Of a stretch of DNA of 28,651 nt, positions 4,881 to 14,348 are shown piece after piece. The stretch comes from a virus. Where the stretch lies: the IMG/VR virus record IMGVR_UViG_3300025585_000134, positions 1 through 28,651 of that record, one strand, 5' to 3'. A program made the position numbers and the translations under genes. The notes under the pieces were generated by a model that saw only the letters and a list, made by a program, of their open reading frames with translations, ran no database searches and had not been told where the DNA came from. Each line of letters begins with the position of its first letter. Within the stretch, counting starts at the first letter, position 1.

Positions 4881-5930
4881 ATGAGTCATCAAGATTACAA
4901 TAGTTTTGGTGGGAATATTTATGAAACTACTAAACATTTCGTTGGCACTGACAGTGAATCTCCCTGGATAACTTGGAATAAACCAAATAATTGTAAATTA
5001 GTTTATTTTCTGTGTATTGGTGGTGGCGGTGGTGGAGCGGGCGGCCCAGCTATGGCGTCAGGAACTTATGCTTCCGGTGCCGTTCCCGGAGGTGGCGCAG
5101 GAACGATGTCAATGTTAATCCCTGCCATGTTTCTCCCTAATACATTATATATAAAGCCAGGTTATTGTGGTTCTGCTGGATCTGGTGCAATATTTGGCTC
5201 TGTTATAGAAACTTCAGGTGGGCCAGGGGGATCTAGCTTTGTATGTTATTATCCTGATTCCTCACAGGGAAATAGAATATGTTTTGCTAATGGTGGAACG
5301 GGTGGTGCCGTCTCTGGTCATCAGGTTTCTTCCAGTGTAATTGATGGTACTATGGTTGATGCAAGTAATATATTTTATGGCCACGCAGGAATTAGACAAC
5401 ATATGATGCCTCAACTTACTAAAGACAGAACTAATACTAATACTTATGCTGGATTATATAGTTTTGATATAAACAATTCTAATACTATGGGTCGGGATAA
5501 CAATATTTGTACACCAGGATTATTTGGAAATAGCACTACATCTGCCGGAGCCTCAGTATTTGATACAAAATATATATTGTTTGGGGATAATTCTACTAGC
5601 TATCCTTATCCTTTCCCCGCATTATCTAACAGTAATTCACTTACAACACCAATCAATGGATTGGGCTATGGATTAGATCTTTCTTATACTGGAGATGATT
5701 TTTTCTATGGAAATATTGAGGGGGGACCTAATAGTAATCATGGATTCTATTTTTGTGGGGGTGGTGGTGGATATTTTAATACTCTAAGTGGAACCGCAGG
5801 GCATGGTGGCCATGGTGGAATTGGCAGCGGAGGTGGTGGGGGTGGAGCTTGTGGTAATGCAATAACAAATGGTAGAGGTGGAAATGGTGGTAGAGGTGGT
5901 CCCGGATTGATAAGTATAGTATGTATTTAA
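4881..5930 (+). CDS. Glycine-rich tail-tip adhesin-like protein, paralogue 3
   Basis: This 349-residue protein is the third member of the cassette. It has ITWNKPNNCKLVYFLCIGG followed by glycine runs, then FLPNTLYIKPGYCGSAGSG at about 87-105, a variable centre (about 130-290), and the C-terminal lattice (GHGGHGGIGSGGGGGGACG) closed by LISIVCI. It carries more cysteines than paralogue 2 (C36, C98 and others). A GGAG about 11 bases upstream of the ATG may serve as ribosome binding site. Its TAA stop overlaps the stop of the opposing 75-residue gene, marking the end of this plus-strand block. Confidence 0.65.
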   Translation: MSHQDYNSFGGNIYETTKHFVGTDSESPWITWNKPNNCKLVYFLCIGGGGGGAGGPAMASGTYASGAVPGGGAGTMSMLIPAMFLPNTLYIKPGYCGSAGSGAIFGSVIETSGGPGGSSFVCYYPDSSQGNRICFANGGTGGAVSGHQVSSSVIDGTMVDASNIFYGHAGIRQHMMPQLTKDRTNTNTYAGLYSFDINNSNTMGRDNNICTPGLFGNSTTSAGASVFDTKYILFGDNSTSYPYPFPALSNSNSLTTPINGLGYGLDLSYTGDDFFYGNIEGGPNSNHGFYFCGGGGGYFNTLSGTAGHGGHGGIGSGGGGGGACGNAITNGRGGNGGRGGPGLISIVCI

Positions 5931-6154
5931 TCTACTTTATCACCACGCTTTAAAGAAGAAACCAATCTAAGCATTACATTTTCTCTTATACCATCTAACT
6001 CTCTGTAAATGCTAGTTAATGAGTTCAAAGTATCCAATCCAATCCTCTTACTTTTAAGTGCCTTAATCTCATCACCTAGACGCTCTAACGTGGTTTGTTG
6101 AGTTGGAGTAAAGTTATACAAAGAATCTAATAGAGTTTCAGCTTTTATAGTCAT
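5927..6154 (-). CDS. Small helical protein downstream of uvsW (UvsW.1 positional analogue)
   Basis: This 75-residue, charged, probably all-helical protein (TLLDSLYNFTPTQQTTLERL, then a second helix-like stretch with LDTLNSLTSIYRELDGIREN) is not recognised by sequence. Its ATG overlaps the helicase stop as ATGA (6154-6151 on the minus strand), which implies translational coupling. In T4, uvsW is followed by uvsW.1, a 76-residue helical protein. The match in size and position makes a UvsW.1 analogue the best guess, but it rests on context rather than shared motifs. It converges with the third glycine-rich gene, the two stop codons overlapping within TTTAA. Confidence 0.5.
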   Translation of the reverse strand: MTIKAETLLDSLYNFTPTQQTTLERLGDEIKALKSKRIGLDTLNSLTSIYRELDGIRENVMLRLVSSLKRGDKVD

Positions 6155-7524
6155 AGTTTAATCCACGAAATGTCGTGGCCTTCTTTTCGATAGTGTTTGA
6201 TTCTAGCCTTGGAATGCTCGCGCATGTAAGGTATTTCATCCATAAAATCGTATACCATTACTGAGCTTTTGTCTTTAGCCTTTCGCATACCACGACCAAG
6301 CCCTTGGATCGTAGGTATCTTATCCTTCAATCCACGAGCGTTGATAAGATGGCTGATCTCTTCAATATTAATTCCAGTCTGAAGGACTTTGGTGCCGATG
6401 AGGAAGGCAGCTTTCTTGGACTTGAGGAAGCCTTTAATAGCCCCCTGTCGCTCTGAAAGGGAGTTCACACCCTCCAAGGTGAAGGAGTTTGGAATGGCCT
6501 TCCTAAGCGTTTCTAGGTGTGCTAGGTTCTTTACCAGGATACACACCTTAGCTTCAGAGCTAGCAGCAGCAATCTTAGCAGCTAATTCTATGATCATCTT
6601 ATTGCGCTTCTCTGAGTTTACAATAAACTTATCATAGAGATTAGCATATGTATCATCCATATCCTCGGGTTTGAGGTCATCTGTGTATTCAATAATTTGA
6701 ATAACAGGCTTTGCTAACTTGTTCTCCTCAATAAGCTCCTGGGTTGTCTTGGTGCTTATCTTATCCCCAAACGCGCCTCGTAATGTGAGTTGACCAATAG
6801 GATCGTCTGGAAGAGTAGCTGTGAATCCGAAACGGTATTGAGCATTAGGAAAGCTCTGAATAGCAGCGACCGCAATCTCACCTCTACAGAATTTATGAAC
6901 TTCGTCAACAATCAACACCTCCGCTTCTTCTAAATGCGTATCAAATATCTTTTCGATACTTTGAACGGTGGACAACATTATCCTACCATCTTTGTAATCT
7001 CCACCGAGATTAATTCCAACGTCTTTGAATCCGCACTTCTTAGTTAGGTATTCAAAGGTTTGAGTTAGAATACTACGCTCATCGAATAGAATCACAACCT
7101 TATCCTCAGAGAAGGCCGTAAGGAGAGCGGCCAGAATTAAAGTCTTGCCCGATCCCGTTGGCGATAGTATCAAAGCCCTTTGAGCCTTAAGAGCTTCGTA
7201 AACAGCTTTCTCTTGATAATCAAAAAGCTTGAACTCTTTAATCTGAGTTTCAAATACAAATCCAGATCGAGGTTCGTAATCTCTTATTATACTAGGCTTG
7301 CAACCTACTTTCTCAAGATCAGCTAGGATACCATTTAAAAGCCCAGTTTTAAATCTCCCTGTGGCGGTTATAAATCGTTTTTTACCATCCCAACCCCGTC
7401 TTTGATAGGCCGGGGTATACTGATATCCCTGGACTGGGAAGGCCCAATTATCTGATAAAACTTTTATAATTTGGGGGTTATCAGTTTCTATTAAGGAGTC
7501 TATAATACCTACGCGAATTTGCAT
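6151..7524 (-). CDS. uvsW: UvsW-like superfamily 2 DNA helicase
   Basis: This is a superfamily 2 ATPase of 457 residues from the ATG at 7524, or 459 from an in-frame GTG at 7530. Numbering from the GTG, an N-terminal domain carries a TPAYQRRGWDGKKRF motif (39-53), then a Q-motif-like LFDYQEKA (102-109), Walker A SPTGSGKT (123-130), DEVH box (209-212), motif III FTATL (236-240) and motif VI QGLGRGMR (409-416). T4 UvsW remodels branched DNA, drives fork regression, and switches replication from origin- to recombination-dependent initiation. No convincing Shine-Dalgarno precedes either start. Sampled stretches are about 43% G+C, above the neighbouring structural genes. The helicase call is certain; assignment to UvsW rather than another phage SF2 helicase is likely. 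Confidence 0.88.
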   Translation of the reverse strand: MQIRVGIIDSLIETDNPQIIKVLSDNWAFPVQGYQYTPAYQRRGWDGKKRFITATGRFKTGLLNGILADLEKVGCKPSIIRDYEPRSGFVFETQIKEFKLFDYQEKAVYEALKAQRALILSPTGSGKTLILAALLTAFSEDKVVILFDERSILTQTFEYLTKKCGFKDVGINLGGDYKDGRIMLSTVQSIEKIFDTHLEEAEVLIVDEVHKFCRGEIAVAAIQSFPNAQYRFGFTATLPDDPIGQLTLRGAFGDKISTKTTQELIEENKLAKPVIQIIEYTDDLKPEDMDDTYANLYDKFIVNSEKRNKMIIELAAKIAAASSEAKVCILVKNLAHLETLRKAIPNSFTLEGVNSLSERQGAIKGFLKSKKAAFLIGTKVLQTGINIEEISHLINARGLKDKIPTIQGLGRGMRKAKDKSSVMVYDFMDEIPYMREHSKARIKHYRKEGHDISWIKL

Positions 7525-7544
7525 ACACACTATAATAGTGTGTA
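7524..7544. promoter_or_regulatory. Perfect palindrome between divergent uvsW-like and gp26-like genes
   Basis: Ten-base arms TACACACTAT (7524-7533) and ATAGTGTGTA (7535-7544) flank a single A. The left end overlaps the ATG and GTG starts of the minus-strand helicase, and the right end touches the AAAGGAA ribosome binding site of the plus-strand gene. The centre holds TATAATA on the plus strand and TATTATA on the minus strand, so it could be a shared -10 element or an operator for a dimeric repressor. This is inference from symmetry and position. Confidence 0.5.
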
Positions 7545-7554
7545 AAGGAATTAT

Positions 7555-8298
7555 ATGAAAGAATTAGATCCAAATCAAGAGAATAGAGATTCAAGATTAG
7601 AGCAACTATTTGGTGAGTTGCCACTTGAAGCCGAAACGATGATAAATCTACCTTCTGAGGGTAGATTTTATTCTAGTAAAGTATCTCAGGTAACTATTTC
7701 ACCAATTACTTTTGAAGACGAGAAGCAGCTATCCACAAGTGTTAAAAATAAGATAAACCCTGTAAATTTAATTATATCTAAATGCACTAAGGGTATTGAT
7801 ACTAATAATTTATTATTAATGGATAAGCTTTATCTTTTATTAAAAATAAGAGAAATTTCTTATGGGTCAAAGTATCCTGCATCAATAAGCTGCCCTAAGT
7901 GCTCTGCCGAGTCAGAAGTTACTATTGATCTATCTGATTTAATTATAAATAAATTAGATGTGGACATTACCGATCCAAGAGAAATACAGCTTCCAAAACT
8001 TAAAAAGACCGCCAAGGTAAGGTTCCCCAGGGTAAGCGATGAGCAGTATTTAAATAACCAAGAACAAATTTATAATAATATCTGGAGATTCGTAATAGAA
8101 CTTAATGGAATTAAAGATCCAGTATTTATTAATAAAGCCATCCCAAAAATGCATATTATGGACATTAAATTTATGATAAACCATATTATGCGCCCAGATC
8201 TAGGTTTAGACCCAAGATTTATTTATGACTGTGGCTTCTGCGGGGCAACCTCGGAAATGGCGGTGCCAATTAGCGAAAATTTTTTTTCAGTGACCTAG
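7555..8298 (+). CDS. 26: gp26-like baseplate hub assembly protein (T4_baseplate family), zero-frame product
   Basis: This 247-residue protein has the features I know from the T4 gp26/T4_baseplate family. The N-terminal part has INLPSEGRFY and the ITFEDEKQL segment, and a central region has LLLKIREISYG followed by CPKC (C113, C116). A second CGFC pair (C226, C229) near the end completes a four-cysteine zinc ribbon. The start ATG follows AAAGGAA by four bases. The gene closes with AAT TTT TTT TCA GTG ACC TAG, and a slippery run there gives access to a coding -1 frame, so this zero-frame protein is probably the short form of a pair. In T4, gp26 acts in hub assembly and gene 51 lies just downstream, the same order as here. 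Confidence 0.75.
   Translation: MKELDPNQENRDSRLEQLFGELPLEAETMINLPSEGRFYSSKVSQVTISPITFEDEKQLSTSVKNKINPVNLIISKCTKGIDTNNLLLMDKLYLLLKIREISYGSKYPASISCPKCSAESEVTIDLSDLIINKLDVDITDPREIQLPKLKKTAKVRFPRVSDEQYLNNQEQIYNNIWRFVIELNGIKDPVFINKAIPKMHIMDIKFMINHIMRPDLGLDPRFIYDCGFCGATSEMAVPISENFFSVT
8277..8287 (+). promoter_or_regulatory. Candidate -1 ribosomal frameshift slippery site
   Basis: In the zero frame the codons are GAA AAT TTT TTT TCA. Both A AAT TTT (8277-8283) and T TTT TTT (8280-8286) fit the X XXY YYZ slippery pattern. The zero frame stops four codons after the run (TAG at 8296-8298), while the -1 frame stays open to 8477. The -1 frame has a stop at 8271-8273, just upstream, and no ATG, GTG or TTG before 8343. 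No strong stimulatory structure is obvious immediately downstream. Confidence 0.65.
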
Positions 8299-8477
8299 TA
8301 GATCAATTAAATTTAGAAAATATACTGTTTGAAGCCTACATATTGGTAAGTAAATGTAATTTTACTTATCAAGATGTTAAGAGTATGACCAGGATAGAAA
8401 GGGCCGTATTCTTAAAACTTTATTCCGACCAAGTAAAGGCTGAGAACGATGCTATTGAACAATATAAACATAGATGA
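8286..8477 (+). CDS. gp51-like C-terminal extension reached by -1 frameshift from the gp26-like gene
   Basis: After slippage the reading continues FSDLVDQLNLENILFEAYIL and ends with a TGA at 8475-8477, adding 63 residues to give a fusion of about 307. The extension is helical and has a YQDVKSMTRIERAVFLKLYS stretch followed by a charged tail. This resembles, by pattern, the Y-x-D-(V/L)...M...ER..F helices of small phage hub-assembly and tail-assembly chaperones. The frame has no suitable start codon or ribosome binding site of its own, and it fills the otherwise non-coding gap before the next gene, overlapping that gene by 29 bases. In T4, gene 51 occupies this position as a separate gene. An alternative is independent initiation at CTG 8325 or TTG 8343, which I consider unlikely. 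Confidence 0.65.
   Translation, partial: FSDLVDQLNLENILFEAYILVSKCNFTYQDVKSMTRIERAVFLKLYSDQVKAENDAIEQYKHR
8347..8368 (+). other. Weak AT-rich inverted repeat downstream of the slippery site
   Basis: TAAGTAAA (8347-8354) and TTTACTTA (8361-8368) form a perfect eight-base stem with a six-base loop. It lies about 60 bases beyond the slippery run, too far for a classical frameshift stimulator, and the pairing is mostly A-T. It is recorded because it is the clearest fold in this region. Confidence 0.3.
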
Positions 8478-9396
8478 GCGGCACAATAGGCCAGCAGTCC
8501 TATCTAAAGTGGGGTTGCAGGCCCATTTTATTAGTGATGGGCAGTATGTCGATCCTTATCAAATAAGTTCTGTAACTATATTTAATAAATCACTAGATTT
8601 ATATCCATACTCAATTTTAAATAGCCAAACTCAGCTTATTGATACCTCTTCGGTAAGCGGATCAATTTTAATGAGTTTTACTAGTGATTATCCTGAAACT
8701 AGTAATTTTAAATCTGGTTCACAATATAGTTCTGGAGATGATGATATATTTAAATTATCAACTGGAAAATATATTGTTGTTTTAGACGGTTCTAAAAATT
8801 CAAATCAAACTGGTAAAATAAATTTGGATGGAATGTCAACTACAATCCCTAATACAGTATCAAATACGGGAGACTACATTGATGCTTGGACAGTCAGAAT
8901 GTATCAAAATTCTGATCTACAAGTAGTAATAAATGATTTTACCCTTAGAAAAGGTGGATTTACTGTTCTAACTGAACCCATAATGATTAAATCTAAGAAT
9001 AGATTAATTAATAGTAAAGTAAATTTAGGTTCAATATCAGATATAAAAGTTGCAACAGATATCCATGTAGAAAATACTCAAATAAATGAATCAGTGAAAA
9101 ATTTATTTAGAGATACAGTTGTAACTAGTGGAGCATTTGAAATCCAAAAATTAAATGAAGCTGCAAATTTACCGGCTAGAGTAACTGTTTCTTCATTCAA
9201 TGAAACTAGTTCTTTAGTCAGTATAACTGCGGATAATGTTTTACTATTTAATTGGGATACCACTAAATTATCAACCCACCCTCAATTAGTTGCCGGTAAT
9301 TTTGGATCTATCCAAGGTGTATATGCTATTCGTGTAAGATACACAATATTTAAAGATACAATTATTTCTGATCCAATGTATCTAACTCTCTCATAG
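8449..9396 (+). CDS. Putative virion structural protein, unrecognised
   Basis: This 315-residue, beta-rich protein is rich in Ser, Thr, Asn and Ile, with no signal peptide or membrane segment. Visible landmarks are an opening region with HNRPAVLSKVGLQAHFISDG and VDPYQISSVTIFNKS, a middle SNTGDYIDAWTVRMYQNSDL, and a C-terminal strand pattern (GVYAIRVRYTIFKDTIISDP). I do not recognise the family. It reads like a baseplate or tail-associated protein with immunoglobulin-like sandwich domains, and its place directly after the hub assembly gene supports that. The ATG lies inside the end of the frameshift frame, so translation is probably coupled. Its 3' end overlaps the opposing primase gene by 35 bases. 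Confidence 0.6.
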   Translation: MLLNNINIDERHNRPAVLSKVGLQAHFISDGQYVDPYQISSVTIFNKSLDLYPYSILNSQTQLIDTSSVSGSILMSFTSDYPETSNFKSGSQYSSGDDDIFKLSTGKYIVVLDGSKNSNQTGKINLDGMSTTIPNTVSNTGDYIDAWTVRMYQNSDLQVVINDFTLRKGGFTVLTEPIMIKSKNRLINSKVNLGSISDIKVATDIHVENTQINESVKNLFRDTVVTSGAFEIQKLNEAANLPARVTVSSFNETSSLVSITADNVLLFNWDTTKLSTHPQLVAGNFGSIQGVYAIRVRYTIFKDTIISDPMYLTLS

Positions 9397-10342
9397 TATC
9401 CCACTCATTCAAATGAAATTGTTGGTGGCTTTTTAGATGATCGTGAAGCATTCGTTTATCTTTGACGAATGCTTCATTCCAATCCTTGAATCCTGAGGGC
9501 GGAAAGCAATAGTTAAATCCTGGCATCCTAGCTCTTCTACGACGAAGCTCAAACGTGCGCAAACCATCTAATCCGGCACGATCATTATCGTAAGCCACTA
9601 TGATCTTGCCCTGATAGTATTTCAGTTGTTCTAGCTGCGCCATCGAAACATGGCAGGAGATCGTAGTTGTGGCGTTGAATCCCATCAACTGCAATGACAT
9701 CGCATCAATAGCGCCCTCGCACACGTAGAGATGATCAGTTGAATCATATTTGAAAGGAAATAGAACTGACGATGACTTCATGCCCTTGAAGTTCAAATAC
9801 TTGGGATTCTGATTAGATAAGGTTCTGCCCTGAAAGAAGAATACCTTGTCTCGGTTTCGATAGGGTATAATTAATCTTCCGTAATAAAGACCTTGATTAG
9901 CGACGTAAAAGTCGCCATACTCCACGATGCCACGGTCGATTAGAGCCGTAATTGCCTGAGAATTATAATGGCAAGAAGTATTGGCAAAGTCTAGTTTTTT
10001 AAAGTCTTGATCAAATAACTTGTTAAGTTCTTCCTCGGTATTATTTTTACTCTCTGGGGCAGGCTTAATTTCTTCGGCAAAGAATTCATCGACCAGGAAC
10101 TTCTGATATGCTAACTTGTAAGTTAATCTTTCAAGTTGGGCATACAGGTGAATAAAGTTGCCCTTTTCACCAGATTTAAAGCACTGCCAAAGCCCAGTAT
10201 CTAAATTAATCGACATGTGGCGTTTGGTATCACTATCTAAAAAGATAGATGGGATAATCATTTCCCGGCCACTGCTAATTAATTTATATTTTCCCTCGAA
10301 TTTTTTAATTAAGTAGTCTCTAATATAGTTTGAGGAAATCAT
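9362..10342 (-). CDS. DnaG/gp61-like DNA primase with TOPRIM domain
   Basis: This 326-residue protein has a recognisable TOPRIM core: LYVCEGAIDAMSL (E209 in EGAIDA, 209-214) and IIVAYDNDRAG (D252 and D254). The catalytic stretch before it includes GRLIIPYRNRDKVFFFQGR (155-173). The N-terminal region aligns by pattern with a CHC2 zinc ribbon (INLDTGLWQCFKSGEKGNF, 45-63), but only one of the usual ligands remains (C54; the expected C57 is Ser), so it probably does not bind zinc. Primases of this type make RNA primers for lagging-strand synthesis with a replicative helicase. At 326 residues it is close to T4 gp61 in size. Its ATG shares two bases with the divergent nuclease start (CATG). The one G+C-rich line I counted in this gene was 29 of 60. 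Confidence 0.82.
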   Translation of the reverse strand: MISSNYIRDYLIKKFEGKYKLISSGREMIIPSIFLDSDTKRHMSINLDTGLWQCFKSGEKGNFIHLYAQLERLTYKLAYQKFLVDEFFAEEIKPAPESKNNTEEELNKLFDQDFKKLDFANTSCHYNSQAITALIDRGIVEYGDFYVANQGLYYGRLIIPYRNRDKVFFFQGRTLSNQNPKYLNFKGMKSSSVLFPFKYDSTDHLYVCEGAIDAMSLQLMGFNATTTISCHVSMAQLEQLKYYQGKIIVAYDNDRAGLDGLRTFELRRRRARMPGFNYCFPPSGFKDWNEAFVKDKRMLHDHLKSHQQFHLNEWDTMRELDTLDQK

Positions 10343-11147
10343 GTTTTTAGACCGATTAAGTAATTCAAAATCCGACGTAATAGATCAGTGTTTGCTCAAG
10401 TATGACTATAGATATATTAGGAAGCTTCCGGGCTACCCATCAAAAAACGAGGACGCAGTGGACTTCGGAACCTATATTCATAGAATCTTTGAGCTTGGCC
10501 ATACCGAGAATCATATCACACAGCTAGAGAAAATTGCAGAAAATATTAAAAAAGATTATAAAGTCCCGCTAGTCTATAAAGATAGGATAGACCAATGTTT
10601 ACGTAACTTCCTAAGGTTCAATAAGGGCCTAGGAGAGACGATGGCAGTGGAGCATGAGTTCTCGGTCGATTTAGCTGATGGAGTGAAATACAATGGCTTT
10701 ATTGACCGTATAGTCAAAGGAGAAAAAGGTGGTATTTTAATTATTGACTATAAGACTTCTAAGAAAGAAAAGACTAAAATAGATTTATCTAGAGACAAGC
10801 AGCTTATTGGGTATGCTTTTGCAGTTTCTAAAGAGTTTAATATACCTATAAATGATATCTGGTGTGCTCACTATTACCCATTAACTGATAATCTAGTTTC
10901 AGTTAAATTCCCTCAATCTGCCATAAATATGTGGAGGGAAAAAGAAATTAGTAAAGTTTGGAAGATCCGCAAAAAGAAGAAGGAGGATTTCCCGCCAATG
11001 CAAAATGAGTTCTGTGATTGGTGTGAGTATAAGCCCGTATGCCCTCTATTTAATGAAGAGTGCGAAGTAAAGAAAAGATTGGATGAGCAGGAGCTTTTAA
11101 AGAAAACTCAATCTAAGCCAGAAAGCTTACCCAAAATAACAGGGTAA
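10341..11147 (+). CDS. Cas4/RecB-family PD-(D/E)XK nuclease with Fe-S cluster cysteines
   Basis: This 268-residue protein carries the RecB-type nuclease motifs in order: H47 (GTYIHRIFELGH), D122 (NGFIDRIV), D136 and K138 (ILIIDYKTSKK), then Q154..Y158 (KQLIGYAFAV). C17 near the N-terminus together with C225, C228 and C234 (FCDWCEYKPVC) fits the 4Fe-4S pattern of Cas4 and AddB nucleases; C241 is extra. Proteins of this type cut or resect DNA ends, and in phages they are assigned to recombination or DNA processing. No CRISPR genes are nearby, so a phage exonuclease role is most likely. A GAGGA at 10332-10336, inside the primase coding region, is a good ribosome binding site for this start. The 3' end overlaps the opposing 97-residue gene by 40 bases. 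Confidence 0.82.
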   Translation: MFLDRLSNSKSDVIDQCLLKYDYRYIRKLPGYPSKNEDAVDFGTYIHRIFELGHTENHITQLEKIAENIKKDYKVPLVYKDRIDQCLRNFLRFNKGLGETMAVEHEFSVDLADGVKYNGFIDRIVKGEKGGILIIDYKTSKKEKTKIDLSRDKQLIGYAFAVSKEFNIPINDIWCAHYYPLTDNLVSVKFPQSAINMWREKEISKVWKIRKKKKEDFPPMQNEFCDWCEYKPVCPLFNEECEVKKRLDEQELLKKTQSKPESLPKITG

Positions 11148-11401
11148 TAGATAGAAACATCTATAGCTTCAAAGAAGTTTTTAACTTGAAATGTGGAATA
11201 TCCACATTTATTTGACAGATGTTTGTATAAAGATTCAATTTTTATTGGCTTTCTGTCTTTTAATGACTTGATTATCTTGGCCTGAAACTCTTTTAAGAAC
11301 TTACCACTAAATCTATATTTCCACTTATCCAGGAAGTCATCACTTAAAGTAAAGTTAATTAAATCTATAAATTCAACAATTTCTGTATCTATATTGCTCA
11401 T
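11108..11401 (-). CDS. Small helical protein of unknown function
   Basis: This 97-residue protein is rich in Lys, Phe and Ile (DKWKYRFSGKFLKEFQAKII, then IESLYKHLSNKCGYSTFQVK). It appears mostly helical, with a possible winged-helix or HTH-like centre at about 54-80. I do not recognise it. Its composition is AT-rich (17 of 60 G+C in the line at 11161-11220), unlike the primase. It overlaps the 3' end of the nuclease gene by 40 bases on the opposite strand and is transcribed away from the tape-measure operon. A DNA-binding or recombination accessory role would fit the neighbours but is a guess. Confidence 0.5.
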   Translation of the reverse strand: MSNIDTEIVEFIDLINFTLSDDFLDKWKYRFSGKFLKEFQAKIIKSLKDRKPIKIESLYKHLSNKCGYSTFQVKNFFEAIDVSIYYPVILGKLSGLD

Positions 11402-11530: not shown

Positions 11531-11914
11531 GTGGAAGCTGGACACCATGATTCTACCCTTGGGTTTAGGAATAATGATGCCGCCTCCCTGCAAGCTGGGG
11601 ATATTGCTTTTTTTAACTATAAAGGTGATAGAGGTTCAAGTTTTAGACAAGTTTTGGTGGTGAATACTGAAGTTAGTAAAAATGGTAAATGGAGATCTAT
11701 GAGAGGCAATAACTTAATTAATTGTTTTGAAGTATACGGTTCAACCTCTAAATTAGATTTATTATTTACTTATTTCTATAAAAATAGAATTGGTTCTAGT
11801 TACAAAAAAGGTTTAAATTTATTTTTTGGCGAAAGTAAGTTTAGAACTTTTAATCTAAATAAAATTGGGACGGTGTATGAGTTAGTCCCCAGGAAGGTAA
11901 TCAGTGGCAGATAA
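11531..11914 (+). CDS. Small beta-rich tail protein before the tape measure; start uncertain
   Basis: From the GTG at 11531 the protein has 127 residues. The frame is open further upstream to just after a stop at 11471-11473, and a good AAGGAA lies eight bases before an ATA at 11486, which would add 15 protein-like residues. I give the conservative GTG start, but the longer form may be the real one. The body contains LQAGDIAFFNYKGDRGSSFR and a following VLVVNTEV strand, then GKWRSMRGNN. This reads like a small SH3-like barrel. I do not recognise the family. The stop overlaps the start of the tape measure gene, so the two are coupled, and the gene is the first of the long tail operon. Confidence 0.6.
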   Translation: MEAGHHDSTLGFRNNDAASLQAGDIAFFNYKGDRGSSFRQVLVVNTEVSKNGKWRSMRGNNLINCFEVYGSTSKLDLLFTYFYKNRIGSSYKKGLNLFFGESKFRTFNLNKIGTVYELVPRKVISGR

Positions 11915-14348
11915 TGATAAAATTGATAAAAATCTAAAAAAGTTCAATAAAGAACTTGAAGATGCTATTGATCCTTTAACTAGCGTTGTAACTCAAATAA
12001 AGGTGTTTGATAAAGTATTCTTAAAATTTTCAAACAACTTTATAGAAAGCACCAAACATTTAAACTTAAAAAGTTTTGGAACTAAGATAACTTCATTAGT
12101 TGATAAGCTGGGTGGTAGTGCAAAACAACTAGGATCAGCATTTAATAAACTTAAAAAAATAAATGAGCAGTTAACTAATTTTAAACTTCCAACAGGCATA
12201 GTTGGTAACCCGGCAGACTCAGGAACTAAGGGAACGGGAAATAAAACTCAAAATTACAATGATGCAATAAATGCCTTAGTCTCTAAAATGTCTGGAGTTA
12301 GAGGAAGAAGATCTGGGCAGATGGATGCTGCTTTTGATCAATTAGCATTACTTGATCAAGAATTAAAGAAAGCAGTCCCAGATATTACTGCGGTAAATGC
12401 TGCTTTTGATGCAATATTTACAACTCTGCAATCATCAAACAATAAAGGAGTTTTGAAAGCATTCCAAGATTACTTTGATGCGCTATCTAATGATCCAGCA
12501 TTAGCAGCAAAATTAGCCGCTGCAGCACAGTTGGCAAATGCTCCCGCTCCAGTTGCACCGCTGCCAGCACCAATAACTCCTCCTTTACCACCACCCCCAA
12601 ATAATCCACCAGGAAATCCCCCAGGCAACCCACCAGGAAATCCTCCTGGTAATCCCCCTCCCGGACAGAACCCTCCTGTAACTAGAAACCCAGTTCAATC
12701 TTGGTTTGGGAAGTTAATAAATAATATTCAACCCTCTGTGACTCCACTTTCTAGATCTTTTGACAATTTAGCAAGAAAAACTGAGTTAATTAACAGAAGG
12801 ATGGGTAGATTCCAAAGTAATATAGACTTAGCTGGAACTGATATTAAAAATCGTTTGGCTGGTGCTATAGCCAGACTACAGCTATCAACCACGGTTAAAA
12901 ATCCTAGAGATCCTAATTTTAGAAGAGTTGGTGTAGATGAGATGAGATCTGCAGTTTTGGCTGCAAGATCTTTAATAGATAGTGCATTAAAAAAACTTAC
13001 TGCTGCCTTTGATGAGATGACCGATAAATTCCAAGAGATGAATTTAAATGCTCTTAGAACTGGAACTACTCAAGGTCAAATTAGAGGTGAGGGTGCGGAT
13101 GTTCAAGGCGTTGCTTTAAACGACATGATGGAAGAGTTGATTGCTTTCAGAGAATCAGGAATTAAAAATTTAAATCAATCAACTAAAAATTTAATTGGAA
13201 CTATGAGGATGACTGGGCAAAACACCCAGACATTAATAAAATTCTTAGGGTCTAATGCAAATGAAACGCTTCTTTCCAGAGAGGCTTCAGAGAAGTTTGC
13301 AAGCGTTGTAGCTGATTCTGCACAAAAGTATGGTCAGTCTGCAGAAAATGTTATCAATGGTTTGAATGCGATGTCCAATGTTATAAAAAGATCAGAGGCA
13401 ATTGGATCAACTCAAATCAAAGAAGGTTTAGCGATATTACAAGCTCAAGCAGGCCCTGAGAATGCTCAAGCTATAAATGAGGCAATAAAATTTGCACTAG
13501 ACCCTGCAAACCTCGGTGCTGCGATAAGTATGGGACTTGGAGACAGTATTACCAAGTTACAAACGGCATCAACCGGACAAGGTGCCGCTATGGCAATTAA
13601 AGAAATAATTGCAAAAGGTGGTGCAGCGGTTGCCTCAAGAACTCAGGATGTTGGAACTGGTCCTGATGCTCAAATGAGATTGCTTGCTTCTTTGGAGACG
13701 CTGGGTGGTGAACAGGCACTGTCACTACAGCAAGCTAACGTTGCAATGCAAAATCTTACAACGACAATGCAGCCAATGAAGCAGATTGCTGATACGTTGC
13801 AAGCTATTTGGAATGAAATTAAAAAACCATTAGAACAGATGGCAAGTATGTTTGCACAACTTCTACAAGTTGTTGTAGAGATTTTATCCCCTATTCTTAA
13901 ATTACTTGCTCCAGTAATTGGTTTTATTGCTAGCTTAGTTGTTTTCTTTGCAAAAATTTATATTTATATATCATTTTTAAGAAAAATAGTAACAATTATC
14001 TCTTGGGTCTGGAGAGGTATATCTTTACTAGTATCTATACTAAATCCAATAGGTTTAGCTATAGCTGCAATAGTTGCAATAGCTGCTGGTATTTGGTGGT
14101 TAGTTGGAACTACTAAGAAAATTGAAAAGAAGATTCCAGATCCAAAAATGGATGATAACAGACAAAGATTTGATAATTTATTATTAAGATCTTTGAACTC
14201 ATCTATTCAAGCTATTAGCGAAAATCAAAGATACAGTGATGCAGCTTTAGGTTTATTGGCTGAAGTTGCAGGGCATGGAAAGAATACTAATGAACAACTA
14301 AATGATATACAAAGAGCTAAAAAGTTTACTCCAAGTGAGGCGAGATAA
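11904..14348 (+). CDS. Tail tape measure protein
   Basis: This 814-residue protein is the longest helical protein in the run. It has a coiled-coil-like N-terminal half, a Pro-rich linker at about 220-262 including four PPGN units, a second helical region, and a hydrophobic stretch at 650-734 (with VVEILSPILKLLAPVIGFIA and AIAAIVAIAAGIWWLV) that could insert into the host membrane. This layout, and its position before tube-initiator and baseplate genes, is typical of tape measures, which set tail length and are ejected on infection. T4 gp29 is 590 residues, so this tail may be longer, though the Pro-rich linker complicates any estimate. The start is GTG at 11904 with AGGAAGG six bases upstream, overlapping the previous stop. 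No peptidase or muramidase motif was seen. Confidence 0.75.
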   Translation: MADNDKIDKNLKKFNKELEDAIDPLTSVVTQIKVFDKVFLKFSNNFIESTKHLNLKSFGTKITSLVDKLGGSAKQLGSAFNKLKKINEQLTNFKLPTGIVGNPADSGTKGTGNKTQNYNDAINALVSKMSGVRGRRSGQMDAAFDQLALLDQELKKAVPDITAVNAAFDAIFTTLQSSNNKGVLKAFQDYFDALSNDPALAAKLAAAAQLANAPAPVAPLPAPITPPLPPPPNNPPGNPPGNPPGNPPGNPPPGQNPPVTRNPVQSWFGKLINNIQPSVTPLSRSFDNLARKTELINRRMGRFQSNIDLAGTDIKNRLAGAIARLQLSTTVKNPRDPNFRRVGVDEMRSAVLAARSLIDSALKKLTAAFDEMTDKFQEMNLNALRTGTTQGQIRGEGADVQGVALNDMMEELIAFRESGIKNLNQSTKNLIGTMRMTGQNTQTLIKFLGSNANETLLSREASEKFASVVADSAQKYGQSAENVINGLNAMSNVIKRSEAIGSTQIKEGLAILQAQAGPENAQAINEAIKFALDPANLGAAISMGLGDSITKLQTASTGQGAAMAIKEIIAKGGAAVASRTQDVGTGPDAQMRLLASLETLGGEQALSLQQANVAMQNLTTTMQPMKQIADTLQAIWNEIKKPLEQMASMFAQLLQVVVEILSPILKLLAPVIGFIASLVVFFAKIYIYISFLRKIVTIISWVWRGISLLVSILNPIGLAIAAIVAIAAGIWWLVGTTKKIEKKIPDPKMDDNRQRFDNLLLRSLNSSIQAISENQRYSDAALGLLAEVAGHGKNTNEQLNDIQRAKKFTPSEAR
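12606..12653 (+). repeat. Four 12-bp units encoding PPGN in the tape measure linker
   Basis: The codons CCN CCN GGN AAY repeat four times in frame (residues 235-250) and are flanked by further Pro/Gly/Asn. The period of four residues excludes a collagen G-X-Y triplet. It reads as a flexible or extended linker that can change in length by slippage. Confidence 0.8.

Follow-up and report, generated by a model that had tools for sequence, protein, structure and literature searches.

The phage represented by the window, a stretch of 28,651 nucleotides spanning positions 1 to 28,651 of IMG/VR virus record IMGVR_UViG_3300025585_000134, very probably makes a TAC-N/TAC-NC pair by -1 ribosomal frameshifting on U_UUU_UUU, as judged from its sequence and those of its relatives. 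The locus would be the tail assembly chaperone (TAC) of a T4-related contractile-tailed phage. Most ribosomes would terminate at the zero-frame stop and release TAC-N, a gp26-like protein of 247 aa. In a minority, the P- and A-site tRNAs on TTT TTT would move one base backwards on U_UUU_UUU and pair anew in the -1 frame, so that translation continues to the TGA and gives a TAC-NC of 307 aa, presumably the counterpart of T4 gp51. If they act as lambda G and GT do, the two forms would form a coat on the tape measure protein and bring in tube subunits before departing from the finished tail. We base this reading on what the analysis shows directly, namely the slip site and its conservation, coding in each of the two frames, a domain match to gp51 and a TAC-like fold; we infer tandem tRNA slippage in infected cells and a short-to-long ratio, as well as, by analogy, the action of the chaperone on the tape measure protein. 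A -1 frameshift joining gp26-like and gp51-like parts in the manner of lambda G/GT had been proposed in the preliminary description, and it is still the best explanation, the slippery run and the -1 ORF being kept in homologues.

Table. Features of the putative chaperone locus and of the likely tape measure gene, in positions of the window
Feature	Position	Strand	Basis or remark
gp26-like gene, putative TAC-N (short form, 247 aa)	7555..8298	+	ORF, PF12322, phrog_150, AlphaFold model
TAG stop of the -1 frame, just before the slip site	8271..8273	+	sequence
Slippery site A_AAT_TTT_TTT	8277..8286	+	A_AAU_UUU (8277-8283) overlaps the conserved U_UUU_UUU (8280-8286)
-1 frame extension, predicted gp51-like C-terminal domain (TAC-C), 63 aa, ending at TGA 8475-8477	8286..8477	+	translation TTC AGT GAC CTA..., phrog_634, 30-sequence conservation
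Zero-frame stop TAG, end of the short form, 9 nt past the slip site	8296..8298	+	sequence
Inverted repeat, 17-nt arms, 88% complementary, 51 nt past the slip site	8338..8377	+	doubtful stimulator
Likely tape measure protein, presumed chaperone client	11904..14348	+	phrog_305 tail length tape measure, E 8e-5

The gp26-like ORF matches Pfam PF12322 (E 1.1e-15; 58.4 bits, cut-off 24.5) and phrog_150 (E 8e-18), and its 3' end reads GAA AAT TTT TTT TCA GTG ACC TAG in the zero frame. As the preliminary description had noticed, two in-frame heptamers, A_AAT_TTT and T_TTT_TTT, overlap here, and a slip on either gives an identical 307-aa product (244 + 63). A scan of 21 ORFs of the window located no other in-frame U_UUU_UUU, and every other homopolymer in the window is shorter than the T8 run. 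The earlier account of the -1 frame also agrees with the letters: a stop closes it just upstream, no ATG, GTG or TTG occurs before a TTG at 8343, and 63 residues are encoded up to 8477. Two details needed correction. The gp26-like gene had been said to end four codons after the slippery site, but the stop itself is the fourth codon past TTT TTT, and the -1 ORF, rather than exactly filling the gap to the next gene, overlaps the next ORF, whose first ATG lies at 8449, by 29 nt. A_AAU_UUU as the main slip site was rejected; it is present in the window's nearest relatives and lost in others, which carry C AAT, C GAT or C GGT.

The comparison set comprised 30 distinct sequences, window included, taken from two scans of viral contigs, with relatives 35-76% identical to the window. 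The preliminary description had proposed a search of homologues for the slippery run and the downstream -1 ORF, and both are kept throughout the set. NNT TTT TTT occurs at the equivalent position in 30/30 sequences, and both Phe codons of the slip site are TTT in every one (entropy 0). Elsewhere in the gp26-like gene, four other conserved Phe codons are a mixture of TTT and TTC, with entropies of 0.72-0.95, and none of 48 other conserved codons of the N part shows zero entropy. Additionally, the base before TTT TTT is T in all 30 sequences, and the residue encoded there varies (N, D, G, S, H); the third base is T in 55% of comparable codons elsewhere in these genes, the sequences being related rather than independent. 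The -1 ORF is open in 30/30 sequences over 55-66 codons and contains the conserved motif AYILVxK..F.YSDVK.MTK.ER..F.KFY. Its differences amount to 0.35, 0.23 and 0.52 at the three codon positions, and thus fall mostly at third positions. Collectively, the site and the extension show conservation under selection for both frames. As a separate observation, a second block conserved at the nucleotide level lies at 8331-8350 of the window, 45-60 nt past the slip site (AAGCCTACATATTAGTAA); its Ile codon, ATA, is invariant (30/30), which exceeds the protein-level requirement.

Long homopolymer runs can cause polymerase slippage, and the run is a T8 homopolymer in 28 of the 30 sequences. RNA polymerase stuttering on T8 could produce extra-U mRNAs that join the frames without ribosomal frameshifting. 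We regard this as unlikely, since the arrangement persists in relatives whose run is only T6 or T7. The run is T7 in two homologues, and in cyanophages sharing the arrangement the site reads NNT TTT TTC, with six T; polymerase slippage should be weak there, yet the canonical heptamer U_UUU_UUC is intact. Moreover, the phase of the run is fixed to the codons by the constant preceding T, as tandem tRNA slippage requires. Homopolymers are also error-prone, and if the T run had been misread or misassembled, which the preliminary description had named as its possible undoing, the two frames would truly be one ORF. However, both the run and the two frames recur in about 30 metagenome contigs whose proteins diverge by as much as 65%, the T run is equally long in independent assemblies, and the zero-frame stop lies at an equal offset from the slip site in 26 of the 28 sequences tabulated. 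Because the T run recurs across many independent assemblies, such an error can be taken as excluded.

The gp51-like residues might also come from a separate small gene with its own start, translationally coupled to gp26. Phage S-RSM4 is annotated in this way, with g51 as a small ORF, and an ATG at extension codon 33 is conserved. However, codon 33 is the first start codon (ATG, GTG or TTG) of the extension in most members, by which point more than half of the conserved domain has been passed, and a Shine-Dalgarno-like sequence seldom accompanies the possible starts. In particular, the segment from the zero-frame stop to the first usable start already differs by 0.36, 0.23 and 0.52 at the three codon positions; this third-position bias before any start codon argues that the extension is translated from upstream. 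A separate gene would furthermore leave the invariant TTT TTT unexplained, and we consider it highly improbable compared with ribosomal frameshifting.

The 63-residue extension matches phrog_634, "baseplate hub assembly catalyst", with a modest E of 1.8e-4 over profile positions 61-117 of 121. T4 gp26 is a PF12322 protein; in T4 gp51, residues 1-201 match PF12322 and residues 147-246 match phrog_634. As T4 gp51 consists of a gp26 domain and this C-terminal part, its counterpart is the frameshift product in full, all 307 aa. The preliminary description had called the 63 residues themselves gp51-like; the profile match bears this out for the C-terminal domain only, since T4 gp51 also has a full gp26-like domain. 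Compared directly by profile, the extension and T4 gp51 matched only marginally, a tblastn search with the -1 extension returned a single, insignificant match, and a DNA-level search of phage records returned no match. On these domain assignments, the short form is the predicted equivalent of gp26 and the 307-aa long form that of gp51.

An AlphaFold2 model of the window's gp26-like protein was built from 49 sequences and reached a mean pLDDT of 87.5. Among 699 PDB chains realigned with VIA-align, the best match was Bacillus YqbN (3klu; Z 7.4, 78 residues, 3.2 A), followed by the HK97 tail assembly chaperone gp13 (2ob9; Z 6.8, 91 residues, 4.7 A). Together these two matches cover model residues 9-109, and the third-ranked chain has a Z of 4.2. 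YqbN and the HK97 protein are both described as tail assembly chaperones (PMC9603447). These matches stand out only in VIA-align; Foldseek of the model against the PDB gave no significant match, and neither gp26 nor T4 gp51 matched any solved structure by sequence. Against viral models, the gp26 model matches gp26-like hub proteins, for example that of SP-15 (E 2.5e-17). The model thus suggests a TAC fold for the N-terminal domain at a middling Z of about 7. The protein also carries a CxxC...CxxC unit, with C113, C116, C226 and C229 nearly invariant, and this insertion resembles zinc ribbons.

Downstream of the slip site, a 9-bp hairpin starting after about 50 nt is strong in the window's nearest relatives but not consistently conserved. 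Pairing in the hairpin region is 80.6%, versus 25-48% in slid controls. Against synonymous-codon shuffles, the mean z of folding is only -0.86, with differing registers, and an RNAalifold consensus structure of the region downstream of the slip site contains no pairs; on these grounds, the hairpin is not claimed as a conserved stimulator.

The likely tape measure gene lies 3.6 kb downstream of the chaperone gene, with other genes between, and its phrog_305 match is weaker than its match to phrog_971, "endolysin" (E 8e-11). Helicase, primase and exonuclease genes are found among the tail genes at 5927-7530 and 9362-11401, some of them on the minus strand; those for the primase and the exonuclease stand between the chaperone gene and the likely tape measure gene. 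The gp26-like gene of SP-15, LIS04 and immuto is situated between the tail tube and tape measure genes, which is the position of lambda G/GT.

Related arrangements occur in other phages. Cyanophages S-RSM4 and Sf-CH1b, marine virus AG-345-E15 and Atu_ph07 have NNT TTT TTC G(G/C)A followed by a stop, and their -1 ORF measures 176-224 nt. Part of this ORF in S-RSM4 (locus L097, 3142-3360) is annotated as a separate small gene, g51, yet the -1 frame is already open ahead of the g26 stop, and this g51 is probably a mis-annotated frameshift extension. In a sister clade, 20/20 distinct sequences have a non-T base, exactly T7 and then GG; here the conserved extension lies in the +1 (or -2) frame, and its differences fall mostly at third codon positions (loci L046, L051, L059, L061-L063, L065-L067, L069, L074, L078-L080, L082, L084, L085, L087, L089 and L096, the last being Microcystis phage Mel-JY01). 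In the -1 clade, the context is T before TTT TTT and then TC. It is quite possible, and we propose it tentatively, that the sister clades join the same two domains at the same Phe-Phe T run in opposite directions and that the preceding base helps to set the direction.

Further candidates were seen beyond these two clades. In LIS04 (L008, 3650-3930), GXN1 (L009, 3680-4000) and SP-15 (L010, 3620-3875), the end of the gp26-like gene is near NCC CGA TTY, and the +1 frame holds an open gp51-like extension, which makes them candidates for +1 frameshifting; the extension occupies an unannotated gap before the tape measure gene or, in SP-15, surrounds a small hypothetical ORF there. In a third clade, the gp26-like ORF continues beyond a T/C-rich site to encode a charged tail, and a conserved -1 extension (FFLP...EEIFFFQYH...LP...RKWMI.RFI.QKE.EN) reaches about 176-197 nt past the stop (loci L040, L041, L043-L045, L047-L049, L052, L054, L057, L058, L060, L064, L068, L070-L072, L075-L077, L086, L088, L090 and L091).

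If this reading holds, the seemingly missing gp51 of uncultured T4-related phages would be present and reached by frameshifting. This would correct annotations that omit gp51 or name a separate tiny gene, such as g51 of S-RSM4 and the gaps in Sf-CH1b and LIS04, and would support the view that gp26 and gp51, long listed as baseplate hub proteins, are tail assembly chaperones. Moreover, the -1 and +1 (or -2) sister clades, if truly so, would offer a ready-made series in which to study what encodes the direction of slippage.

T4 gp26 and gp51 match the window's TAC-N and TAC-NC in domains (PF12322, and PF12322 plus phrog_634, respectively). Unlike in the window, they are two genes in T4, and the statement in the preliminary description that gene 51 comes right after gene 26 does not hold, as the two are on opposite strands about 50 bp apart. 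T4 is said to encode TAC-N and TAC-NC separately in this way, as genes 26 and 51, and frameshifting is reportedly conserved in several T4-like groups. Lambda G/GT consists of a short chaperone and a longer form made by a -1 frameshift near the gene end, at the slippery site G_GGA_AAG, and its client is the tape measure protein. The window resembles it in having a short chaperone and a longer -1 form. However, the protein family is different, and the window has U_UUU_UUU, a zinc-ribbon-like insertion and genes between the chaperone and the tape measure.

TAC genes of T4-like phages have been reported by Vladimirov, Gautam and Davidson (Virology 2022, 566:9-15). Citing that work, PMC12846349 states that TAC-N genes of T4-like phages are known to carry poly-T -1 signals, and PMC10885494 that in some T4-like phages a separate short gene and a fused long gene replace frameshifting. 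The arrangement had been thought not established for gp26/gp51; going by these accounts, both the T4-like TAC genes and the poly-T signals were already described. The frameshift switch is thus known for tail chaperones, including those of T4-like phages, and the window case is not new in kind. Like the window, the T4-like TAC genes of Vladimirov et al. are described as having short and long forms, although the window's uncultured lineage may fall outside those covered there. In the TAC locus of Vandenendeviridae (phage Adele), a -1 frameshift occurs near the end of TAC-N on the T run GTTTTT, and the downstream frame is open in all genomes (PMC12846349). This locus shares with the window a T-run -1 site near the TAC-N end, while the slippery sequence and the phage family differ.
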